44,983 bases of DNA from a virus: IMG/VR virus record IMGVR_UViG_3300040793_000026, positions 1 through 44,983 of that record. One strand, written 5' to 3'. The notes beneath the pieces were generated by a model, which worked only from the letters and a program-made list of their open reading frames with translations, had not been told where the DNA came from and ran no database searches. Below, one piece after another: positions 12,213 through 44,371 of this stretch; the stretch's first letter is position 1; the number at the start of each line of letters is the position of its first letter. The position numbers were made by a program, and so were the translations under genes.

Positions 12213-12467
12213 ATGAAATCTCGACTTCTACCCGCCCTGGCGCTGTCCGTGGCGCTGGTCGGTTGCGCCACTGTGCCTGATGGCAACGGCGGCACCCGGA
12301 CCGAACTGACCGACGGCGGGCGAGCCGTCGTGGGCATCTTGTTCGCTGCCATTCTCGTCGGCGGGCTCGCCGCCCTCAGTGACGACGGCGATCGCCCTAC
12401 CAGCTCGCTGGTGACGACCTATCCGGACGGCAGCCAGTCTCGCACGGACTACTACTACAACCGATGA
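12213..12467 (+). CDS. Small lipoprotein with transmembrane segment
   Basis: 84 aa. Lipoprotein signal with the box L-V-G-C, Cys at residue 18. After a Gly/Thr-rich linker comes a hydrophobic segment ('VVGILFAAILVGGLAAL', residues about 39-55), then a polar tail ending in 'RTDYYYNR'. Small phage lipoproteins often block superinfection (as T5 Llp or Cor do), which is a possible role but not shown by sequence. The leader ACCTGAGAGGA (12195-12205) is strong. The stop overlaps the polymerase start by 4 nt (ATGA). Confidence 0.75.
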   Translation: MKSRLLPALALSVALVGCATVPDGNGGTRTELTDGGRAVVGILFAAILVGGLAALSDDGDRPTSSLVTTYPDGSQSRTDYYYNR

Positions 12468-14551
12468 GCCCGACCAACCTACCCCGCATACTCGTCGTGG
12501 ACATCGAGACGGGGTCTCCCTGCGACATCAAAAAGGAAGGTCAGTTCAGGTACTGGGACGACCCCGGCACGCGAGTCTTCATGACTGGCGTTGGTTGGCT
12601 CCACGGCACCGATGACGTCCACGTCTTCGACCACGAGGCGGCGGGTGAGCGCCTCCCGGCATGGGTCGAGGACGCCCTCACTGACCCGTCCGTCATGCTC
12701 GCCGCCGCCAACTGCGAGTTCGACCGCGCGGGACTGGCGCGCATGGGCTACCCGACGCCGTCGGAACGCTGGATCGACGTGCTCGTCTGCGCGTACCAGC
12801 TGGGCTTTGCCGGTCGCCTGGCGGACGTCCTGTCGCAGACCCCGCTGGAAGTCGAGAAGAACCCCAAGGGATCACTGTGCATCAGCACGTTCTCCTCCCT
12901 GAAAAAGGCGTGGCATGAATCCCCGGATCTGTGGGACGAGTTCGTCCGCTACTGCGGTAATGACGTGCGCGTTGAGCGCGACCTGCTGCGCTGGTGCATG
13001 CAGTGGTTGACTCAGGGATGGCGTGTGCCGAGCGTCCGGAAAGTCCTCGAGCAGGAGCTGATCTATCGTGAGATCAACCGCCGGGGCATCCCGATCGATA
13101 AGCAAGCGGTCACCGGCGCGCTGGAGATCATCGCGCAGGAGCAGGAAGAGCTGATGGAGACCCTGCGCCATAAGACGGGCCTGCCCAACCCGAACAGCCG
13201 CGATCAGATGCTGGGATGGGTCAACCAGAAGATGCCCTATGCGCCGCTCCCGGATCTGACCAAGGCAACGGTCCGCGACGCCGTCGATGATCCCGAGACG
13301 CCCGTTGCCGTCCGCGAGGTGCTTGAGCTGCGCCAAGCGCTGAACAAGTCCTCCGTCAAGAAGTACGCTGCATTGAACGCCGCCACCAGCGACGACGGGA
13401 ACCTGCGCGGCGGTTGGCAGTTCTACGGCGCCAGCCGCACCGGGCGCGTCGCCGGGCGAACGCTGAACCCGGCGAACCTGCCCAGGCCCGCAATACCTTA
13501 TCCGGAAGCCACCGCCGAATGGCTTCGGTTCGGCGACAAAGACTTGCTGGAGATCATGTTTCCAGGATCGGTGCTCGACACGCTGTCCAGCTGCATCCGG
13601 GCAATGCTTAAGGCACCCGAGGGTAAGTTGTGGTGTGTGGCTGACTTGTCGTCGATCGAGTCCGTGGGGGCGGCTTGGGTAGCGGGTTGTGACACGATCC
13701 TGGACATCTTCTTCGCTGGCAGGGATACCTACAAGAGCTTCGCCGCTGAAGCGGAAGGCATTGATTATGAAGAAGTGACCAAGGCGCAACGGACTTACTA
13801 TAAACCAAGTGTTCTCGGCGCATCTTATGGCCTCTCTGGGCGCGGGCTTGTCGGGTATGGCGCCGGCATGGGCGTTGAGATTGAACTAGAAGAAGCGGAA
13901 CGACAAATACGCACCTTCAGAACCCTCTACCACGAGATCCCGCACTATTGGAAACAACTCCAGAGCGCGGCCATTGCCGCCATCGAGAACCCCGGTCGAG
14001 AGTTCCACGCCCTCGCCGCAAAAGCGGTACGGGGGGAGACTGAAGGACGTTTCGGCGTTACCTATCGAGAGTATGACTATCACAGACACCGCTGCACGAC
14101 GTTCCGCTATGACGGTACTTTCCTGTTCATGAAGCTGCCGTCCGGGCGCTACCTCAGTTACTACCGGCCTGAGATTGAGTATGGGCGGGTCATCCACCTA
14201 CCCGACAAAGACCCGTTCACAGCGGATTCGATCAGCTACATGGGCATTGACCAGAACGCCCCGGGCAATGCTTGGCGGCGAGTAGATACCCGAGGGCCGA
14301 AATTTTTTGAGAATTTGGTTCAGGGGTTATGCCGAGACATTCTGTGGGTCGGTCTCAAACAGGCGAACGCCGATCCAGGTTTGGAGGTGGTCGGAGACTG
14401 CTACGATGAAATATTCTCAATGTGTGATGAAACAGACACTAAAGCACTTGACAGGCTAATCGGATACATGACAACATTACCTGACTGGCTTGATGACCGC
14501 TTCTTCTTGGGTGCATCGGGCTACACATCAAAGAGATATCGTAAGGATTGA
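12464..14551 (+). CDS. Family A DNA polymerase with 3'-5' exonuclease
   Basis: 695 aa, the replicative polymerase. The N-terminal DnaQ-like exonuclease has D13-I-E15 and 'NCEFD' (about residue 85). Polymerase motifs: motif A 'VADLSSIES' (about 390-398), motif B 'YYKPSVLGASYGL' (about 445-457) and motif C 'GDCYDEIFS' (about 644-652), where the usual His of 'HDE' is Tyr. Codon use changes: the first two thirds use GC-rich codons like the neighbours, while the last third (from about 13700) is clearly richer in A/T-ending codons, like the HNH gene that follows. The final residues 'TSKRYRKD' reappear as 'TSKRYKKD' at the end of that HNH gene, so the 3' part was probably replaced by co-conversion during homing. 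Confidence 0.9.
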   Translation: MSPTNLPRILVVDIETGSPCDIKKEGQFRYWDDPGTRVFMTGVGWLHGTDDVHVFDHEAAGERLPAWVEDALTDPSVMLAAANCEFDRAGLARMGYPTPSERWIDVLVCAYQLGFAGRLADVLSQTPLEVEKNPKGSLCISTFSSLKKAWHESPDLWDEFVRYCGNDVRVERDLLRWCMQWLTQGWRVPSVRKVLEQELIYREINRRGIPIDKQAVTGALEIIAQEQEELMETLRHKTGLPNPNSRDQMLGWVNQKMPYAPLPDLTKATVRDAVDDPETPVAVREVLELRQALNKSSVKKYAALNAATSDDGNLRGGWQFYGASRTGRVAGRTLNPANLPRPAIPYPEATAEWLRFGDKDLLEIMFPGSVLDTLSSCIRAMLKAPEGKLWCVADLSSIESVGAAWVAGCDTILDIFFAGRDTYKSFAAEAEGIDYEEVTKAQRTYYKPSVLGASYGLSGRGLVGYGAGMGVEIELEEAERQIRTFRTLYHEIPHYWKQLQSAAIAAIENPGREFHALAAKAVRGETEGRFGVTYREYDYHRHRCTTFRYDGTFLFMKLPSGRYLSYYRPEIEYGRVIHLPDKDPFTADSISYMGIDQNAPGNAWRRVDTRGPKFFENLVQGLCRDILWVGLKQANADPGLEVVGDCYDEIFSMCDETDTKALDRLIGYMTTLPDWLDDRFFLGASGYTSKRYRKD

Positions 14552-14553
14552 GC

Positions 14554-15192
14554 ATGGCTGAAGCTATTGACATTCTAGGACAAACATTCGGGCTATTAGC
14601 TGTTACCGAGAAAGTAGGCTCGTGTCCAAATGGGCAAGGCGTGTTGTGGCGGTGTACATGTCAATGTGGCGCTGAGGTAGTCAGGGCGGCGTCATATCTA
14701 CGGAATCACGAGAAAAAGGGGATAAAGGCGGCGTGTCCAGACTGCGCTCATGGTGCCAACAGTACGGCATCAACGCAAAAGAAACTCAGATGGGTGTGGA
14801 AACAGCTCAGGCAACGCTGTTTTAACCCAAATAACGCTCAGTTTGACGACTACGGTGGTAGGGGTATCAGTGTTTGCGCGCGGTGGTCTCATTTTGCGGA
14901 GTTCTTTACGGACATGGCCAGCTCTTACGAGGGCGGGATGACGATAGATAGGATCGACAATAACAAAGATTACTCTCCCGAGAACTGTAGGTGGGTGAGT
15001 CGACAGACGCAAAACAGGAACCGCCGCGACAATAATTTTCTTGATACCCCGAAAGGCCGTATGACGGTTACGGACGCCGCAAAAGCCTTCGGTATCAATG
15101 AGAAGACCCTGCGAACGCGGGTTAATCGGGGCTGGCCAACGCGCCGATGCTTAATACCTCCAACCACGTCAAAACGCTACAAGAAGGACTGA
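14554..15192 (+). CDS. HNH homing-type endonuclease fused to a displaced polymerase tail
   Basis: 212 aa from ATG 14554 (TTG 14548 is also in frame). N-terminal zinc-type cysteines: C34-x-C36-x-C38 and C61-x2-C64. The HNH-like core 'DRIDNNKDYSPENCRWV' (residues 132-148) is followed by 'QTQNRNRR'. Residues about 171-193 look like a helix-turn-helix DNA-binding end. This is the architecture of free-standing phage homing endonucleases. It begins 2 nt after the polymerase stop codon. The last eight residues, T-S-K-R-Y-K-K-D, copy the polymerase C-terminus, and codon use is AT-richer than in most genes here. The gene therefore probably inserted at the 3' end of the polymerase gene and took over its old tail. 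Confidence 0.8.
   Translation: MAEAIDILGQTFGLLAVTEKVGSCPNGQGVLWRCTCQCGAEVVRAASYLRNHEKKGIKAACPDCAHGANSTASTQKKLRWVWKQLRQRCFNPNNAQFDDYGGRGISVCARWSHFAEFFTDMASSYEGGMTIDRIDNNKDYSPENCRWVSRQTQNRNRRDNNFLDTPKGRMTVTDAAKAFGINEKTLRTRVNRGWPTRRCLIPPTTSKRYKKD
15166..15192 (+). other. Displaced remnant of the original polymerase 3' end
   Basis: These 27 nt encode TSKRYKKD-stop in the HNH frame; the polymerase now ends TSKRYRKD-stop at 14525-14551. Most of the differences between the two 27-mers are synonymous. The remnant also carries the AAGGA ribosome-binding site of the next gene (GTG at 15195), as expected if polymerase and that gene were once adjacent. Confidence 0.7.
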
Positions 15193-15194
15193 TC

Positions 15195-15371
15195 GTGACA
15201 CCGAAAGACCAAATCAGACTGTTTCTGCTAGCCTTAGTGCTGCTTCCTATCACGCTTCCGCTATCGGTAACGCTACTCGGCAACGGCCCGCACGACGCGA
15301 CTATACCGACGCTCGTCGTTACGCTGGTCGTGGTGGGCGCAGCGTCCATCAAGATGAGGAAGAAAAGGTGA
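15195..15371 (+). CDS. Small two-helix membrane protein
   Basis: 58 aa from GTG 15195, chosen over the upstream in-frame ATG 15147 because AAGAAGGA lies 6 nt before it and the longer form would overlap the HNH gene. Two hydrophobic segments are seen: 'IRLFLLALVLLPITLPLSVT' and 'IPTLVVTLVVVGAASI', ending in a basic 'KMRKKR'. Function unknown. The stop overlaps the next GTG start. Confidence 0.6.
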   Translation: MTPKDQIRLFLLALVLLPITLPLSVTLLGNGPHDATIPTLVVTLVVVGAASIKMRKKR

Positions 15372-15559
15372 AAAAGTCCGACCGACTCACAGAACGCGAG
15401 ATCGAACTGCTGGAAGGGATGATCTCCGTGCAGGAGCGCCACGCTGAGCGTTGCGACCGCATCGGAAACCGCCGCATGGCGGAGAAGCAACGGGGCTGGA
15501 ACATGGAGCGGATCGCCCTTCTAAACCGAATTCTGAAAGTGATGGGACCAGAAAAATGA
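15368..15559 (+). CDS. Small charged helical protein
   Basis: 63 aa, GTG start overlapping the previous stop (GTGA). The protein is almost entirely charged and helical ('LTEREIELLEGMISVQERHA'), with no recognised family. Its stop overlaps the thymidylate synthase ATG by 4 nt. Probably a small regulatory or accessory protein; no function can be given. Confidence 0.65.
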   Translation: MKKSDRLTEREIELLEGMISVQERHAERCDRIGNRRMAEKQRGWNMERIALLNRILKVMGPEK

Positions 15560-16428
15560 TCCACGTTCCCGTAGAACATCAATACCTGCATCTCGTTAAC
15601 CGAGTGCTCACCGAAGGGGTATGCACGACCAACCGCACCGGCGTCGACGCGCTAGAGGTTCATGGCGCCTACCTGACCGCCGACCTCGCCGCAGGCGCCC
15701 CGGTGCTGACTACCAAGCGGGTCGCGTGGATGTCCGCCTACGCCGAGATGATCGGCTTCATGCAGGGTCTCGACAACGCTGCCGACTTCCGCAAGCTGGG
15801 CTGCCAAGTCTGGAACGCCAACGCCAATGACAACCGAGAGTGGCTTTCCAATGAGCACCGGAAAGGACCGGACGATCTCGGACGCGTGTACGGAGTTCAG
15901 TGGCGCAATTGGCGGACTCAGTACGGCACGGCGATCGATCAACTACGCAGAGTCGTTGACAGCCTCTCCGCCGGCACCGGCTCCCGCCGCGAGATCGTCA
16001 CGGCATGGAACCCAGCGGAGCTTCACCTGATGTCGCTCCCGCCGTGCCACATGATGATGCAGTTCGGGGCGATTGGCGACATGCTGGATATGAGCGTCTA
16101 CATCCGTTCCAACGACCTGGGACTTGGCGCCCCGTTCAACCTGGCGCAGTACGGCATGCTGCTGCAGTTGATGGCGCAGATTACCGGGCACGTCCCCGGC
16201 ACGCTCCACTACTTCGCCTTCGACGCGCACGTCTACGAGAACCACATCGAAGCCCTTGAGGAACAGCTTAATCGGCTTCCGCTGTTGCCTCCGCAACTGA
16301 TCATCGATGACCGGATCAAGACCCTGGACGACATCGGGGATCTGCGGACCGCCGAAGACATCGCTCAGGCGTTCTCGCTTCAAGGGTACTCCCCGCACCC
16401 AGCAATCAAGATGGAGATGGCGGTATGA
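15556..16428 (+). CDS. thyA: Thymidylate synthase (ThyA family)
   Basis: 290 aa from ATG 15556 (ATGA overlap). Makes dTMP from dUMP with methylene-tetrahydrofolate. The catalytic Cys is C164 in 'LPPCHMM'; 'LGRVYGVQWRNW' is the folate/phosphate region; 'RSNDLGLGAPFNLAQY' holds N195, the Asn that selects dUMP over dCMP; and 'YFAFDAHVYENH' is the C-terminal substrate region. It belongs with the divergent phage ThyA type having 'VWNANAN'. A related phage enzyme class, dUMP hydroxymethylase, shares this fold, so hydroxymethyl-dUMP synthesis cannot be ruled out by eye. It works with the dNMP kinase and MazG-like proteins encoded downstream. Confidence 0.88.
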   Translation: MIHVPVEHQYLHLVNRVLTEGVCTTNRTGVDALEVHGAYLTADLAAGAPVLTTKRVAWMSAYAEMIGFMQGLDNAADFRKLGCQVWNANANDNREWLSNEHRKGPDDLGRVYGVQWRNWRTQYGTAIDQLRRVVDSLSAGTGSRREIVTAWNPAELHLMSLPPCHMMMQFGAIGDMLDMSVYIRSNDLGLGAPFNLAQYGMLLQLMAQITGHVPGTLHYFAFDAHVYENHIEALEEQLNRLPLLPPQLIIDDRIKTLDDIGDLRTAEDIAQAFSLQGYSPHPAIKMEMAV

Positions 16429-16619
16429 ACTACTGCGCCAAGCGTAACCGCCGTTGGGTCTGCACTGCCAACAGCGTCAAGAAGCAACGGGATTGCGACC
16501 ACTTCACCGAAGCCCCGAACCAGCTGTGGTGCGCCTGCACTGACGCAGTAGCCCGATGCAACAACCTAATCGCCCGCGCCAACTCGCGGGATAACCCCGA
16601 ACCGCTGGACGACGACTGA
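16425..16619 (+). CDS. Small Cys-rich hypothetical protein
   Basis: 64 aa with six cysteines (C4, C13, C24, C36, C38, C45) and several basic residues, possibly a zinc-binding or nucleic-acid-binding miniprotein. ATGA overlap with the thymidylate synthase stop; its own stop overlaps the next ATG. No family is recognised. Confidence 0.65.
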   Translation: MNYCAKRNRRWVCTANSVKKQRDCDHFTEAPNQLWCACTDAVARCNNLIARANSRDNPEPLDDD

Positions 16620-39774: not shown

Positions 39775-40358
39775 TCCGGTGCTCTATTGATCAAAACAGC
39801 TATCATAGGGCAGTCTTCGTCAGGGTTTAGATTCGTCGAAGTCTTAGCGTTGGCTACTGGAGCCCACACACCAGGCGGAGGAACAGGAGCATTTGAAGCA
39901 TCTGCTACAGTGGTCTGCCCCAACATGCCTGGGACATTGTCACATCGAGCAATACGCGGCGCACTCGTACCCAGGTCAGCGATAACCATTGCACGAAATC
40001 GAACCGCTGCGTCTAGCAAGACAGGACGTTCTAGTACGAAGTCTGTACGCTGAAAAGACCGGCGAATTAACTTCACCTCAGTTTGTTCTAGAATCGTATT
40101 CCCAGTTGCGTCAGTCAGAATGCCACCGCAGTAACGCACTCCTTCTTCTGTACCGGCGGACAAATCGTCGATCTGCGCCACTATACGATTGACGTAGCAC
40201 CGGTACGGCGTTTCTAACAACCGAATAGCAAACATGTTTTCCAGCGTCCGCATAGTCGTCTGTGGTCCAAGTTCGGCGCCGCCGAGCAGGAATCCGCGAC
40301 CGCCCGTAGACGCATCCACGTCGGTACGAAGCATCGTAGCTTGAAAATAACCTAGCAT
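39771..40358 (-). CDS. Hypothetical protein following the collagen-like fibre
   Basis: 195 aa from ATG 40358 (TAATG overlap with the fibre stop; an in-frame start at 40391 would lie inside the fibre gene). No family is recognised. Beta-rich with 'LEQTEVKLIRRSFQRTDFVL' and a Pro linker near the end ('NAPVPPPGVWAPVAN'). Tight coupling suggests that it is a fibre-associated or attachment protein. Confidence 0.65.
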   Translation of the reverse strand: MLGYFQATMLRTDVDASTGGRGFLLGGAELGPQTTMRTLENMFAIRLLETPYRCYVNRIVAQIDDLSAGTEEGVRYCGGILTDATGNTILEQTEVKLIRRSFQRTDFVLERPVLLDAAVRFRAMVIADLGTSAPRIARCDNVPGMLGQTTVADASNAPVPPPGVWAPVANAKTSTNLNPDEDCPMIAVLINRAPD

Positions 40359-43300
40359 TACAATTCTCGCGCCGGGTACATGAGGAGCCACTCCAGTTCA
40401 ACAACATCCCAAATAGCGGTGACGATGTTGCGCCGACCAGGATCAATGTTGAACGGTGGTGGGTCGCCAGTCGGTGTCATCCAGACTGCGTTGCCGGTGA
40501 TCGTGGTGGCAAAGTTGTTCGGTACCACGATCACCACAAGAGACACACCGGCGTCCGTGTCGGTCGGGTCCGGTAGAATCACGTTAACGGCATCAGCCTG
40601 GCTAATACGATATTGCAGGGCAACATCCAGATCGATAGTCACATCGCCAGTAGCGTCAACAATAGAGACGACGGTCTCAACGCCGACCCCGCCCCCACCG
40701 CCCGTGCCGTCCGCGCCTTTCTGGGCCAGAATCTCCCACTCGGTTGCGCCGTCTTCCGGCTCGTTTCCGCCCGCTGCCCCAGTGTTGGCGACAATGCAAG
40801 TCCAAGAAGACCCGTTATGTGACACAACATCGTTGACCTCATAGACGACTGACGTTGCCCACGCACCACGCCACACAAGTCCTGGAGAGCCAGCCGGTCC
40901 AGTCGGGCCGACCCCGCCTTGCGGGCCACGGAATGGTCCAATATTGATCCACGCCGTACCGTTCCACGAGAGCCCGTCGCCTTCATTGGCGTTGCCATCC
41001 GTAACACTGACGATCCAGAGGTCACCTAGGTCTGCATCAACTATGGCAGTGATGTTGTCGTAGGTGTCCGTGCCTTTCAGGGTGATGCTCGCGCCATCAT
41101 CGCCATCGGCACCGGCTGGACCAGCAGACCCCGGATCACCCTGTGGGATGGTGAAATCAAAGACTGCCGCTGCACTGGTACCGCTGTTCGACACTGCCGC
41201 ATCGGTGCCTGCGGCGCCCGTGGTGGTCGTGCCCGCCGTAATCGTTGCGGCAGTACCAGCTGGACCGACTGGTCCAGCAGGACCACGTACAGGGCCAACA
41301 TTTATCCACGCAGTCCCGTTCCAAGAGATACCGTCTCCTAGCAAGACAGAGTCACCTGGGCTATCTTCACTTGCGAGCCATAGGTCGCCGGTATTGGCGT
41401 CCGTGATCGCAATGATGTTGGCGTAGGTGTCCGAGCCTTTAAGGGTTACGCGAGGTCCAGTTGGACCTTCTGGACCTTCTGGACCTTCTGGGCCACGGAT
41501 CGGTCCGACGTTGTTCCACTGCGCACCGTCCCACACCAAACCGTCACCAGCTAAAGCGTCCGGCGGGCTATCTACGCTGACGATCCACATATCACCAACC
41601 GCCGGGTCAGCGGTAGCAATGATGTTCGCATAGGTGTCCGTGCCTACGATTGTCACACCTGAGCCGGCGTCACCCTTATCACCTTTCGCACCCGTGTTGC
41701 CGCGCGGAATCGTGAAGTTGAAGACTGCCGCCGCGCTGGTGCCGCTATTCGCTACCGCCGCATCGCTACCGGCGGCGCCTGTCGTGGTCGTGCCTACCGC
41801 GATCGTCGCTGCGCTACCAGCAGGTCCAGCATCACCTTGGTCGCCTTTAACACCCGCGTCACCTGTGTCGCCCTTATCGCCGCGAGGTATGGTGAAGTCG
41901 AAAACTGCCGCCGCGCTGGTGCCACTGTTGGATACCGCTGCATCGCTTCCTGCAATGCCTGTGGTAGTAGTGCCCGCTGTGATCGTTGCCGCCGCACCTT
42001 CGGCGCCTTCGGGACCTTCAGGACCTTCCGGACCTTCCGGACCTTCCGGACCTTCCGGTCCAGTCTGCCCATCATCACCAGGATCGCCTTTTGCGCCAAC
42101 AGCTCCACGTGGGATTACGAAATTGAAGACGGCGGATGTAGAGGTTCCCGCATTCGTGACCGCTGCATCACTGCCGGGTGACCCCGTTGTGGTTGTCCCT
42201 ACTACAATGGTGGCGGCTGTTCCGTCAGACCCGTCAGACCCGTCAGCACCGTCAGCACCAGCAGGACCGGCAGGACCACGTACAGGGCCAACGTTTATCC
42301 ACGCAGTGCCGTTCCAGGAGATACCATCTCCTAGCAACACAGAATCACCAGGGCTATCCTCGCTGGCGAGCCACAGGTCGCCCGTATTGGCGTCCGTGAT
42401 CGCAATGATGTTGGCATAGGTGTCCGAACCTTTAAGAGTTACGCGAGGTCCAGTTGGACCTTCTGGACCTTTTGGACCTTCTGGTCCACGGATCGGTCCA
42501 ACGTTGTTCCACTGCGCACCGTCCCACACGATACCGTCACCCTCCATCGCGTCTGGCGGGCTGTCTGCGCTGACGATCCACATGTCACCAACGGTCGGGT
42601 CTACTACAGCGATGATGTTATCGTAGGTGTCTGTTCCTACGATCGTCACGCCGGAACCAGCATCGCCCTTGTCGCCTTTCGCACCGGTATTACCGCGAGG
42701 GATCGTGAAGTTAAAGACTGCAGCCGCACTGGTGCCACTATTCGAGACAGCTGCATCGCTACCAGCGGCGCCTGTCGTGGTCGTGCCTACCGTGATAGTC
42801 GCTGCGCTACCAGCAGGTCCAGCGTCGCCATCATCGCCCTTGTCACCCGTCTGCCCGCGAGGAATTGTAAAATTGAAGACGGCGGCGGAACTTGTGCCGC
42901 TATTGGTAACGGACGCATCAGACCCCGCGATACCCGTGTTTGTATTGCCAACCGCGATCGTAGCCGCCGTGCCGGTATCGCCTTTAACACCGGCGGCGCC
43001 GTCATCTCCACGAGGAATAGTGAAGTCGAAGACCGCCGCCGCGCTGGTGCCACTGTTCGAGACAGCTGCATCGCTACCAGCCGCGCCTGTAACGGTGGTG
43101 CCTACCGCGATCGTTGCAGCCACGCCAGCAGGGCCTTCTGGACCCTCTGGACCCTCTGGACCCTCTGGACCCTCTGGACCCTCTGGACCCTCTGAGCCTT
43201 CTGGTCCTATTGGTCCCTCCGGACCGCGAATAGGTCCGACGTTGTTCCACTGCGCCCCATCCCAGACCAGTCCGTCTCCCTCCAGCGCGTCCGGTGGGCT

Positions 43301-44371
43301 GTCTGCGCTAACTATCCACATGTCGCCTGGGTTCGCATCGCCGATTGCGATGATATTGGTGTAGGTATCCGTACCGATGATAGTGACACCAGAACCAGGG
43401 TCGCCCTTGTCACCACGAGGAATCGTAAAATCGAAGACAGCCGCAGCAGACGTACCGCTATTGGTGACGGCAGCGTCAGTGCCAGGGAGTCCTGTCGTGG
43501 TCGTACCTGCCGTGATCGTAGCAGCAGCACCGGGATCGCCTGGATCTCCCTTCGCGCCAGTGTTGCCCCGAGGAATCGTAAAGTCGAAAACCGCTGCTGA
43601 GCTGGTACCACTATTGGTGACGTCGGCATCGCTACCAGCGGCGCCTGTCGTGGTCGTGCCTGCTGTGATCGTTGCAGCCGCGCCAGCCGGGCCTTCCGGT
43701 CCTTCCGGACCAGGAGTACCAGCACCGCCGCCCGCTGCTGGGATGAAGACTGCGCCATCCCAAATGAGCAGCGTGTTTGCGGTGAGATCGCCACTGATGC
43801 CTACCGCTGCCCAAGATGGATCGGCGAGTCCGTCCGTGTCGACAAACCAAAACTCGCCGTCGGTGGACTCGGTTATGGCGAAGGGTTGCGTGACATCTAC
43901 TCGCCCGCGATAAGTAGCTGGCATGAAAGCGAGGAACGCCGGGTCCAACCTGCCGTTCTGGTCGATCTGTTGCAGAGTGACCCACGTGCTGTCAACGTAG
44001 ACGTTCAACCAGATGTTGGCGTCCGGCGGGAACGTCTGAATCCAAAAGCGTCCGTTGCAAACGGTCGGAGGGGCAACCTCGCCTACTGCGGTTTCACAAC
44101 CGGTCGTGCCAGCACTACCACTCAGTCCAGTCTTGATAAGTACAAACTTTGTGCCTTCCCAGAACAGCACGTCATCGATTGCGATGTTGCCAGCGACACC
44201 TACCGCCGCCCAAGACGCATCCGCCAATCCGGACACAGCTACAAGCCATGACTCACCTTGCGTGTTCCCACCCTCCGGCTCGACGTAGGGCACCGTCACG
44301 TCGATGCGCCCGCGATAGCACCCGCAGAAGGCTTCGGTAAGTGAAGACGTTGGCTTGTTCAAGATGGTCAT
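40358..44371 (-). CDS. Giant collagen-like repeat tail/virion fibre
   Basis: 1337 aa. N-terminal: two copies of a 'YRGRxDVTxP' to 'ADxSWAAVG' module (residues about 20-210). Main body: nine copies of a roughly 40-residue unit 'AATIxxGTTTTG...FTIPRG', six copies of a second unit 'GTDTYxNIIAxxD...GDxWxxS' to 'WNNVGPIRG', and Gly-x-y collagen-like stretches (mostly GPE, GPA, GDK) between them. C-terminal: a CBM5/12-like part ('VYEVNDVVSHNGSSWTCIV') and a beta-rich cap. Gly-x-y stretches form trimeric rods, so a long trimeric fibre is expected. The repeats are nearly identical at DNA level, which should favour length change by recombination. Confidence 0.85.
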   Translation of the reverse strand: MTILNKPTSSLTEAFCGCYRGRIDVTVPYVEPEGGNTQGESWLVAVSGLADASWAAVGVAGNIAIDDVLFWEGTKFVLIKTGLSGSAGTTGCETAVGEVAPPTVCNGRFWIQTFPPDANIWLNVYVDSTWVTLQQIDQNGRLDPAFLAFMPATYRGRVDVTQPFAITESTDGEFWFVDTDGLADPSWAAVGISGDLTANTLLIWDGAVFIPAAGGGAGTPGPEGPEGPAGAAATITAGTTTTGAAGSDADVTNSGTSSAAVFDFTIPRGNTGAKGDPGDPGAAATITAGTTTTGLPGTDAAVTNSGTSAAAVFDFTIPRGDKGDPGSGVTIIGTDTYTNIIAIGDANPGDMWIVSADSPPDALEGDGLVWDGAQWNNVGPIRGPEGPIGPEGSEGPEGPEGPEGPEGPEGPEGPAGVAATIAVGTTVTGAAGSDAAVSNSGTSAAAVFDFTIPRGDDGAAGVKGDTGTAATIAVGNTNTGIAGSDASVTNSGTSSAAVFNFTIPRGQTGDKGDDGDAGPAGSAATITVGTTTTGAAGSDAAVSNSGTSAAAVFNFTIPRGNTGAKGDKGDAGSGVTIVGTDTYDNIIAVVDPTVGDMWIVSADSPPDAMEGDGIVWDGAQWNNVGPIRGPEGPKGPEGPTGPRVTLKGSDTYANIIAITDANTGDLWLASEDSPGDSVLLGDGISWNGTAWINVGPVRGPAGPAGADGADGSDGSDGTAATIVVGTTTTGSPGSDAAVTNAGTSTSAVFNFVIPRGAVGAKGDPGDDGQTGPEGPEGPEGPEGPEGPEGAEGAAATITAGTTTTGIAGSDAAVSNSGTSAAAVFDFTIPRGDKGDTGDAGVKGDQGDAGPAGSAATIAVGTTTTGAAGSDAAVANSGTSAAAVFNFTIPRGNTGAKGDKGDAGSGVTIVGTDTYANIIATADPAVGDMWIVSVDSPPDALAGDGLVWDGAQWNNVGPIRGPEGPEGPEGPTGPRVTLKGSDTYANIIAITDANTGDLWLASEDSPGDSVLLGDGISWNGTAWINVGPVRGPAGPVGPAGTAATITAGTTTTGAAGTDAAVSNSGTSAAAVFDFTIPQGDPGSAGPAGADGDDGASITLKGTDTYDNITAIVDADLGDLWIVSVTDGNANEGDGLSWNGTAWINIGPFRGPQGGVGPTGPAGSPGLVWRGAWATSVVYEVNDVVSHNGSSWTCIVANTGAAGGNEPEDGATEWEILAQKGADGTGGGGGVGVETVVSIVDATGDVTIDLDVALQYRISQADAVNVILPDPTDTDAGVSLVVIVVPNNFATTITGNAVWMTPTGDPPPFNIDPGRRNIVTAIWDVVELEWLLMYPAREL
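40900..43730 (-). repeat. Tandem repeat array inside the fibre gene
   Basis: About 2.8 kb of near-identical coding modules (nine 'FTIPRG' units and six 'GTDTY/GSDTY' units), plus short runs of a 9-nt repeat coding for Gly-Pro-Glu (for example near 42000-42060 and 43135-43215). The long open frames on the + strand here come from this repeat composition and are not genes. Confidence 0.9.

Follow-up and report, generated by a model that had tools for sequence, protein, structure and literature searches.

The window analyzed here (the whole 44,983-nucleotide stretch of IMG/VR virus record IMGVR_UViG_3300040793_000026) carries a DNA polymerase gene, an HNH endonuclease gene and a small ORF in direct succession, with the following features:

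12464..14551, plus strand: family-A DNA polymerase, the target gene (PF00476, E 3.5e-15; phrog_17, E 5.7e-89)
13490..14551 (left limit 13451-13763), plus strand: polymerase 3' segment of atypical codon usage, which probably came with the HNH gene (GC3 change point, codon residual)
14525..14551, plus strand: first gene-end copy (TSKRYRKD-stop), now the polymerase C-terminus (sequence; codon residual −0.99)
14543..14547, plus strand: AAGGA, ribosome-binding-like site for the HNH gene, within the first copy (direct reading)
14554..15165, plus strand: HNH endonuclease body with a C-terminal HTH-like part (phrog_374, phrog_3377; alignment of relatives)
15166..15192, plus strand: second gene-end copy (TSKRYKKD-stop), the HNH C-terminus (sequence; absent from aligned HNH relatives)
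15184..15188, plus strand: AAGGA, ribosome-binding-like site for the next gene, within the second copy (direct reading)
15195..15371, plus strand: next gene, 58 aa with a GTG start at 15195, presumed to be the original downstream neighbor of the polymerase (ORF reading)

The polymerase ORF (12464-14551, 695 aa) has the C-terminus ..ASGYTSKRYRKD followed by TGA, its last residues being TSKRYRKD, and the HNH ORF (14554-15192, 212 aa) ends ..IPPTTSKRYKKD and TGA, with TSKRYKKD as its last residues. An earlier note on this DNA had drawn attention to the double end, which direct reading confirmed (final 8 codons: identity of 7/8 aa and 15/24 nt), and had described the two ends as differing mostly at synonymous sites, which was also borne out: six codons differ, five synonymously and one by replacement. 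Under unconstrained drift of one copy, 9 nucleotide changes with at most one amino acid change would be improbable (P ~1e-4), which suggests that each end evolved as a working C-terminus of a polymerase. The conserved end of the polymerase family is a motif, [YF].K[DE], seen at the terminus of 152 out of 169 polymerase homologues (ORFs taken from bacterial, viral and phage loci, including some near-duplicates and a few mis-extended ORFs). The TSKRYKKD tail is absent from aligned relatives of the HNH protein, whose ends vary. The HNH gene of the window is flanked by two copies of the polymerase end, a feature of C-terminal-replacement homing elements, and the ribosome site of the next gene lies inside the second copy, ahead of the GTG, as previously noticed. 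The 58-aa gene had no family match in Pfam and PHROG-type profile searches.

Significance of the shared C-terminus

A scan of C-termini covered 85,976 same-strand ORF pairs from the window and the loci compared (both strands, duplicates included) and returned 12 rows in which 7 or 8 of the last 8 residues matched. Two were the polymerase/HNH pair itself (in the window and its copy, L001), four were small paralogous ORFs in L085, three lay in the 41-43 kb repeat region of the window virus (two in the window, one in L094), and one each came from L024, L227 and a masked run in L144. We discounted the L085 and L227 pairs, the ORFs involved being small paralogous or unexplained ones. In L085 (5987-8843), tandem small ORFs 3' of a polymerase have the common C-termini AAHNIKEGT and LFLLILAE.LADEGM. 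Within the window, plus-strand ORF ends repeat at 41064-43364, which suggests that the long gene on the opposite, minus strand there (40358-44371) is internally repetitive. Acidic C-terminal tails are common to neighboring replication genes in L024 (5885-8097; ADEDDLL) and L005 (ORFs ending at 1244 and 1898; ..DDL), where they are perhaps a common binding motif.

When C-termini of 139 distinct HNH ORFs were compared with those of their upstream genes, the outliers were Vibrio phage 1.133.O (score 42) and the window (35); 2,759 shuffled pairings reached at most 25. A larger, end-anchored comparison (204 distinct HNH ORFs, 182 of them testable, all frames around the HNH stop) ranked L303 first (59), 1.133.O second (43) and the window third (33), against a shuffled maximum of 29 of 3,624. 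A gapped local comparison, covering the 156 HNH ORFs that have an upstream gene, scored L303 at 79, L306 72, L379 57, 1.133.O 46, vB_EcoM_APEC 46, L195 43, L207 40, L342 39 and the window 39; the shuffled maximum was 49 of 1,550, so only L303, L306 and L379 pass in this comparison, and the window is not separated from the null. L379 was dropped, as its upstream ORF resembles another HNH. L268 was only suggestive, with a MazG end ENGQFLKDK and an HNH end TDGIYLKYK scoring 18-19, inside the null. In L294 and L270 MazG adjoins the HNH gene and a matching tail is absent.

Codon usage and history of the polymerase and HNH genes

The polymerase has a third-position GC of 0.83 in codons 1-400 and of 0.60 in the remainder. 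This difference of 0.23 is the largest among the homologues measured (next, 0.08; mean over 161 homologues including the window, −0.010; sd, 0.043), and the best change point is nt 13490 (permutation P ~5e-4), with positions 13451-13763 no more than 3 log units worse. Codon residuals, scored against the codon usage of 16 other window genes, were +0.091 for the 5' part of the polymerase (12464-13489), −0.355 for its 3' part (13490-14551) and −0.489 for the HNH body. The AT-richer codon use that the polymerase 3' third was said to have in common with the HNH gene was thus confirmed, with the break slightly upstream of the ~13700 first proposed. The polymerase tail scored −0.99, below every native 8-codon stretch, and the HNH tail −0.05, a score that 16% of foreign 8-codon stretches equaled or exceeded (8 codons only). 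Codon usage supports, on 8 codons each, a native-like HNH tail and a foreign-looking polymerase tail. Other small window ORFs were also odd (residuals −0.3 to −0.57), the next gene at 15195 scoring −0.33.

Identity of the window polymerase to Casjensviridae-type and other phage polymerases is 34-37%. Searches with its two parts returned top matches at ~33-37% identity to Paenibacillus-type, Ruegeria and Casjensviridae phage polymerases (N-part) and to Erythrobacter, Thiohalocapsa and Casjensviridae phage polymerases (C-part). Trees of residues 1-400 and 401-687 (23 rows each, chosen from 161 candidates, being 164 minus 3 dropped for gaps) agreed in having the window branch near the base, on the Casjensviridae side, and there was no supported conflict between them. 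The phylogenetic check proposed in the earlier note therefore gave no support for different histories of the 5' and 3' parts. Correlation of N- and C-part identities was lowest for the window at four cut points, with only 24-57 rows having enough partners and an undefined median, and was given no weight. Immunity through an altered GGKL site in the polymerase was considered and rejected, GPKF being common in the family (P in 72/163, F in 54/163). An extra stretch of ~25-30 residues at about 14000-14115 of the window is missing in five of six aligned relatives. In Thiohalocapsa phage LS06-2018-MD04 (L009:1989-3847) the polymerase is annotated as two overlapping ORFs.

The HNH protein matched phrog_374 across residues 1-189 (E 1.7e-50); Pfam gave only a sub-threshold HTH_psq match and NCBIfam none. 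The HNH gene does not look intron- or intein-borne: Rfam gave no match, group I intron included, up to E 1 within 12400-16500, the polymerase ORF is uninterrupted and the HNH gene lies outside it. In a tree of HNH proteins (45 rows, 38 different), a single branch (support 99) divided the four MazG-linked HNHs from the rest. The window HNH fell outside this MazG-linked clade, together (SH-aLRT 93) with HNHs that lie within intein-like inserts. Since the window HNH and the MazG-linked HNHs sit on separate branches, the arrangement appears to have arisen more than once. The inserts that hold the tree neighbors of the window HNH are in polymerases and helicase-like genes.

Nested HNH genes were also seen in their own right. 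Out-of-frame HNH genes of ~210-240 codons lie in intein-like inserts at L002:3914-4555 and L003:3968-4642, and likewise in L182, L184, L185, L186, L187, L191, L195, L208 and L230, in the same relative frame each time and with the host frame open throughout. The hosts are family-A polymerases and helicase-like genes, the latter so named from their sequence. The inserts have visible end blocks (..VLT..GW.., ..VHN|C) that are presumably of intein type; no Pfam intein domain was found in the two insert-bearing proteins scanned.

Queries by protein and alignment pattern, by a DNA pattern and by the exonuclease gene found no close HNH-less relative of the window phage among viral contigs, bacterial genomes and named phages. 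The sole near match, G001, belongs to this same virus: the two are 100% identical where compared from 15037 on, the contig ending at that position within the HNH gene. At its other end G001 runs ~9.85 kb beyond the window end (44983), so the genome is at least ~54.8 kb long.

Double gene ends at other target genes

The double-end arrangement recurs at three further target genes (MazG, DNA ligase and a phiKZ-like gene). An HNH orthologue (51-55%, the match including the tail) lies behind MazG in Acinetobacter phages and in Escherichia phage vB_EcoM_APEC; the Acinetobacter case was found via this orthology, outside the end-comparison detectors. Many HNH-less relatives of the Acinetobacter MazG exist, of which two were compared, BP10 (ending ..NGVFIKESDPVYAQVISEIEGNYNA) and MRABphi22 (..NGVFIKESDPAYASVVKSIEENYSA); both end ..FIKESDP.. 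and run into the next gene. The MazG of HNH-bearing phage YMC-13-01-C62 is 93-100% identical to that of BP10 (60-nt blocks) to ~nt 420, then 77% and 57%, and has a different end, ..KNGIFIKISDMTEIEREEYQKSINDRP. The HNH protein of the same phage ends FIKESDPYYAALVKSIEENYSA, matching the native MazG end of MRABphi22 at 19/22 aa and 52/66 nt, with the last 24 nt before the stop identical, and this HNH end continues into the next gene in DNA nearly identical to that of MRABphi22. In the Acinetobacter phages the target-gene end has been directly replaced, and the MazG-like end is now the HNH C-terminus, flush with the next gene. The vB_EcoM_APEC locus has the same look; Acinetobacter record Ab69, whose HNH region has many indels, was left out.

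Vibrio phage 1.133.O was compared with six relatives drawn from 46 matching records, and in all six the gene end leads straight into ATGAAAGCATCAAC. In 1.133.O it is the HNH C-terminus, INGSFVKEADL, that now precedes this ATGAAAGCATCAAC junction, and the MazG-like gene retains its own end (INGCYVKEADL) and stop. Only the last codon and stop set that MazG-like end apart from the one in L265, an empty relative; the divergent copy is the HNH tail, save near its end. As read from these sequences, the polarity in 1.133.O is different from that proposed for the window, so the identity of the original copy is not proved for the window. Presence of the HNH gene is optional among relatives at both the Vibrio and the Acinetobacter MazG sites. 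In Vibrio phage 1.239.O (L266:819-1664) an HNH domain is fused in frame to the N-terminus of a MazG-like protein.

In two further loci the second end lies behind the HNH gene, in another frame. The target in L303 is a phiKZ-like gene (phrog_3179; 40% to a PhiPA3 gene) ending DKESYYRHIKLTSSGV, and DKESFYRHIKLTSSGV-stop occurs within 46 nt past the HNH stop; the two ends agree at 15/16 aa, and of the codon changes between them 12 are synonymous and 1 is a replacement. The L306 target, an ATP-dependent DNA ligase, ends GVMNKPRFARYICIRD.. and is matched at 11/16 aa by GVKDAPRFARYICKRA.. past the HNH stop.

Interpretation and comparison with known systems

The window is best explained by a free-standing HNH homing endonuclease gene belonging to an element that entered the polymerase gene at its 3' end and also supplied a replacement for that end (probability roughly 0.7). 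The HNH protein would have cut a polymerase gene that lacked the HNH gene, and repair would have copied the donor's polymerase 3' third together with the HNH gene into the recipient, with a left crossover in the polymerase near nt 13490 and a right crossover in the last codons. The recipient's own gene end would have been left behind in frame with the HNH gene, so that the last 8 HNH residues would be its former polymerase end. Under this scheme the polymerase would retain a complete C-terminus and both following genes a ribosome site, and the two copies would have to differ in DNA, so as neither to rebuild the cut site nor to collapse by recombination. Homing with capture of the displaced end had been suggested in the earlier note; the anatomy and mechanism gained support, most strongly by analogy with the Acinetobacter phages, as did a foreign 3' segment by codon usage, and against them stand the search that yielded no HNH-less relative, the trees without supported conflict, the odd codon usage of other small window ORFs, the different polarity of 1.133.O, the shortness of an 8-codon tail and the gapped comparison, in which the window does not stand out.

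The HNH gene might instead have arrived already carrying a divergent copy of the polymerase end as a right homology arm, leaving the polymerase end native and nothing captured on this occasion. In 1.133.O the gene end is indeed native-like and most of the HNH tail divergent, but in the window it is the polymerase 3' third and tail that are atypical and the HNH tail that is closest to resident usage, and in Acinetobacter the target-gene end is the foreign one; we regard this account as unlikely for the window. A simple target-site duplication of the last codons of the resident polymerase, followed by drift, would place both copies directly at the flanks of the HNH gene and in frame, as observed, but becomes quite improbable in view of the 9/24 nucleotides that differ versus 1/8 residues (P ~1e-4 if unconstrained) and of the different codon usage of the copies, which two polymerase alleles fit better. 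Coincidence, or convergence of basic HNH tails with AAG GAY TGA kept as the ribosome site of the next gene, has in its favor that KD-stop holds AAGGA in both copies and that unrelated neighbors can have common tails (the acidic ones of L024), but is very improbable, as ribosome-site selection accounts for at most KD and not TSKRY, and end-anchored shuffled pairings reached only 29 versus 33 for the window.

Taken with the other loci, homing with replacement of the gene end may well represent a recurrent class in tailed phages, a view we hold with slightly better than even confidence: HNH homing elements that substitute a recoded end, a stop and the HNH gene for the original 3' end of their target, the displaced end serving as HNH C-terminus or persisting as an untranslated scar and acting as right homology arm. 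Such elements would have arisen separately on polymerase, MazG, DNA ligase and the phiKZ-like gene, and the window HNH may have moved from an intein-like insert to the end of the same polymerase-family gene. If so, a free-standing homing endonuclease can enter the coding region of an essential gene without splitting or splicing, a third route beside introns or inteins and gene fission, which would account for genes with chimeric 3' ends and for unusual C-termini among HNH proteins. Any phage genome could be searched for the signature of double ends alike in protein and divergent in DNA, and how HNH genes spread could be tested in nearly identical phage pairs that differ only by the element.

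No phage precedent was found in the available portions of the literature searched, which lay largely outside subscription journals and included PMC10448857, PMC12724721 and PMC2988022. Free-standing homing endonucleases of T4-like phages, as described in the accessible text of PMC2988022, likewise lie beside essential replication genes with co-conversion of flanks; however, the insertions it describes within coding sequence, mobE in nrdA and mobA in gene 60, break the host gene in two, whereas the window gene is whole and has a second end. In the part of PMC11855218 available to us, ShiLan (an HNH in a phage methylase) is similarly an HNH coupled to an unbroken host gene without a known splicing element, but it lies inside that gene, overlapping out of frame, and the window HNH is downstream and separate; the nested HNH inserts (in L002, L003 and others) differ from ShiLan (PMC11855218) in their visible intein-type end blocks. 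The closest likeness is to mobile ORF elements with carboxy-terminal duplication in fungal mitochondria (Allomyces atp6; Glomus atp6, atp9, cox2 and nad3), which, in the portion of PMC3630166 consulted, also have an endonuclease ORF just 3' of the target gene, a foreign C-terminus that completes the gene, a native C-terminus displaced behind the endonuclease, and copies similar in protein and divergent in DNA. According to the same text (PMC3630166), the fungal elements are mitochondrial and encode LAGLIDADG or GIY-YIG enzymes, whereas those described here are HNH elements of tailed phages and can carry the displaced end as an in-frame extension of the endonuclease. By this analogy, the best reading of the window element is as a phage counterpart of the fungal mitochondrial C-terminal-replacement elements.
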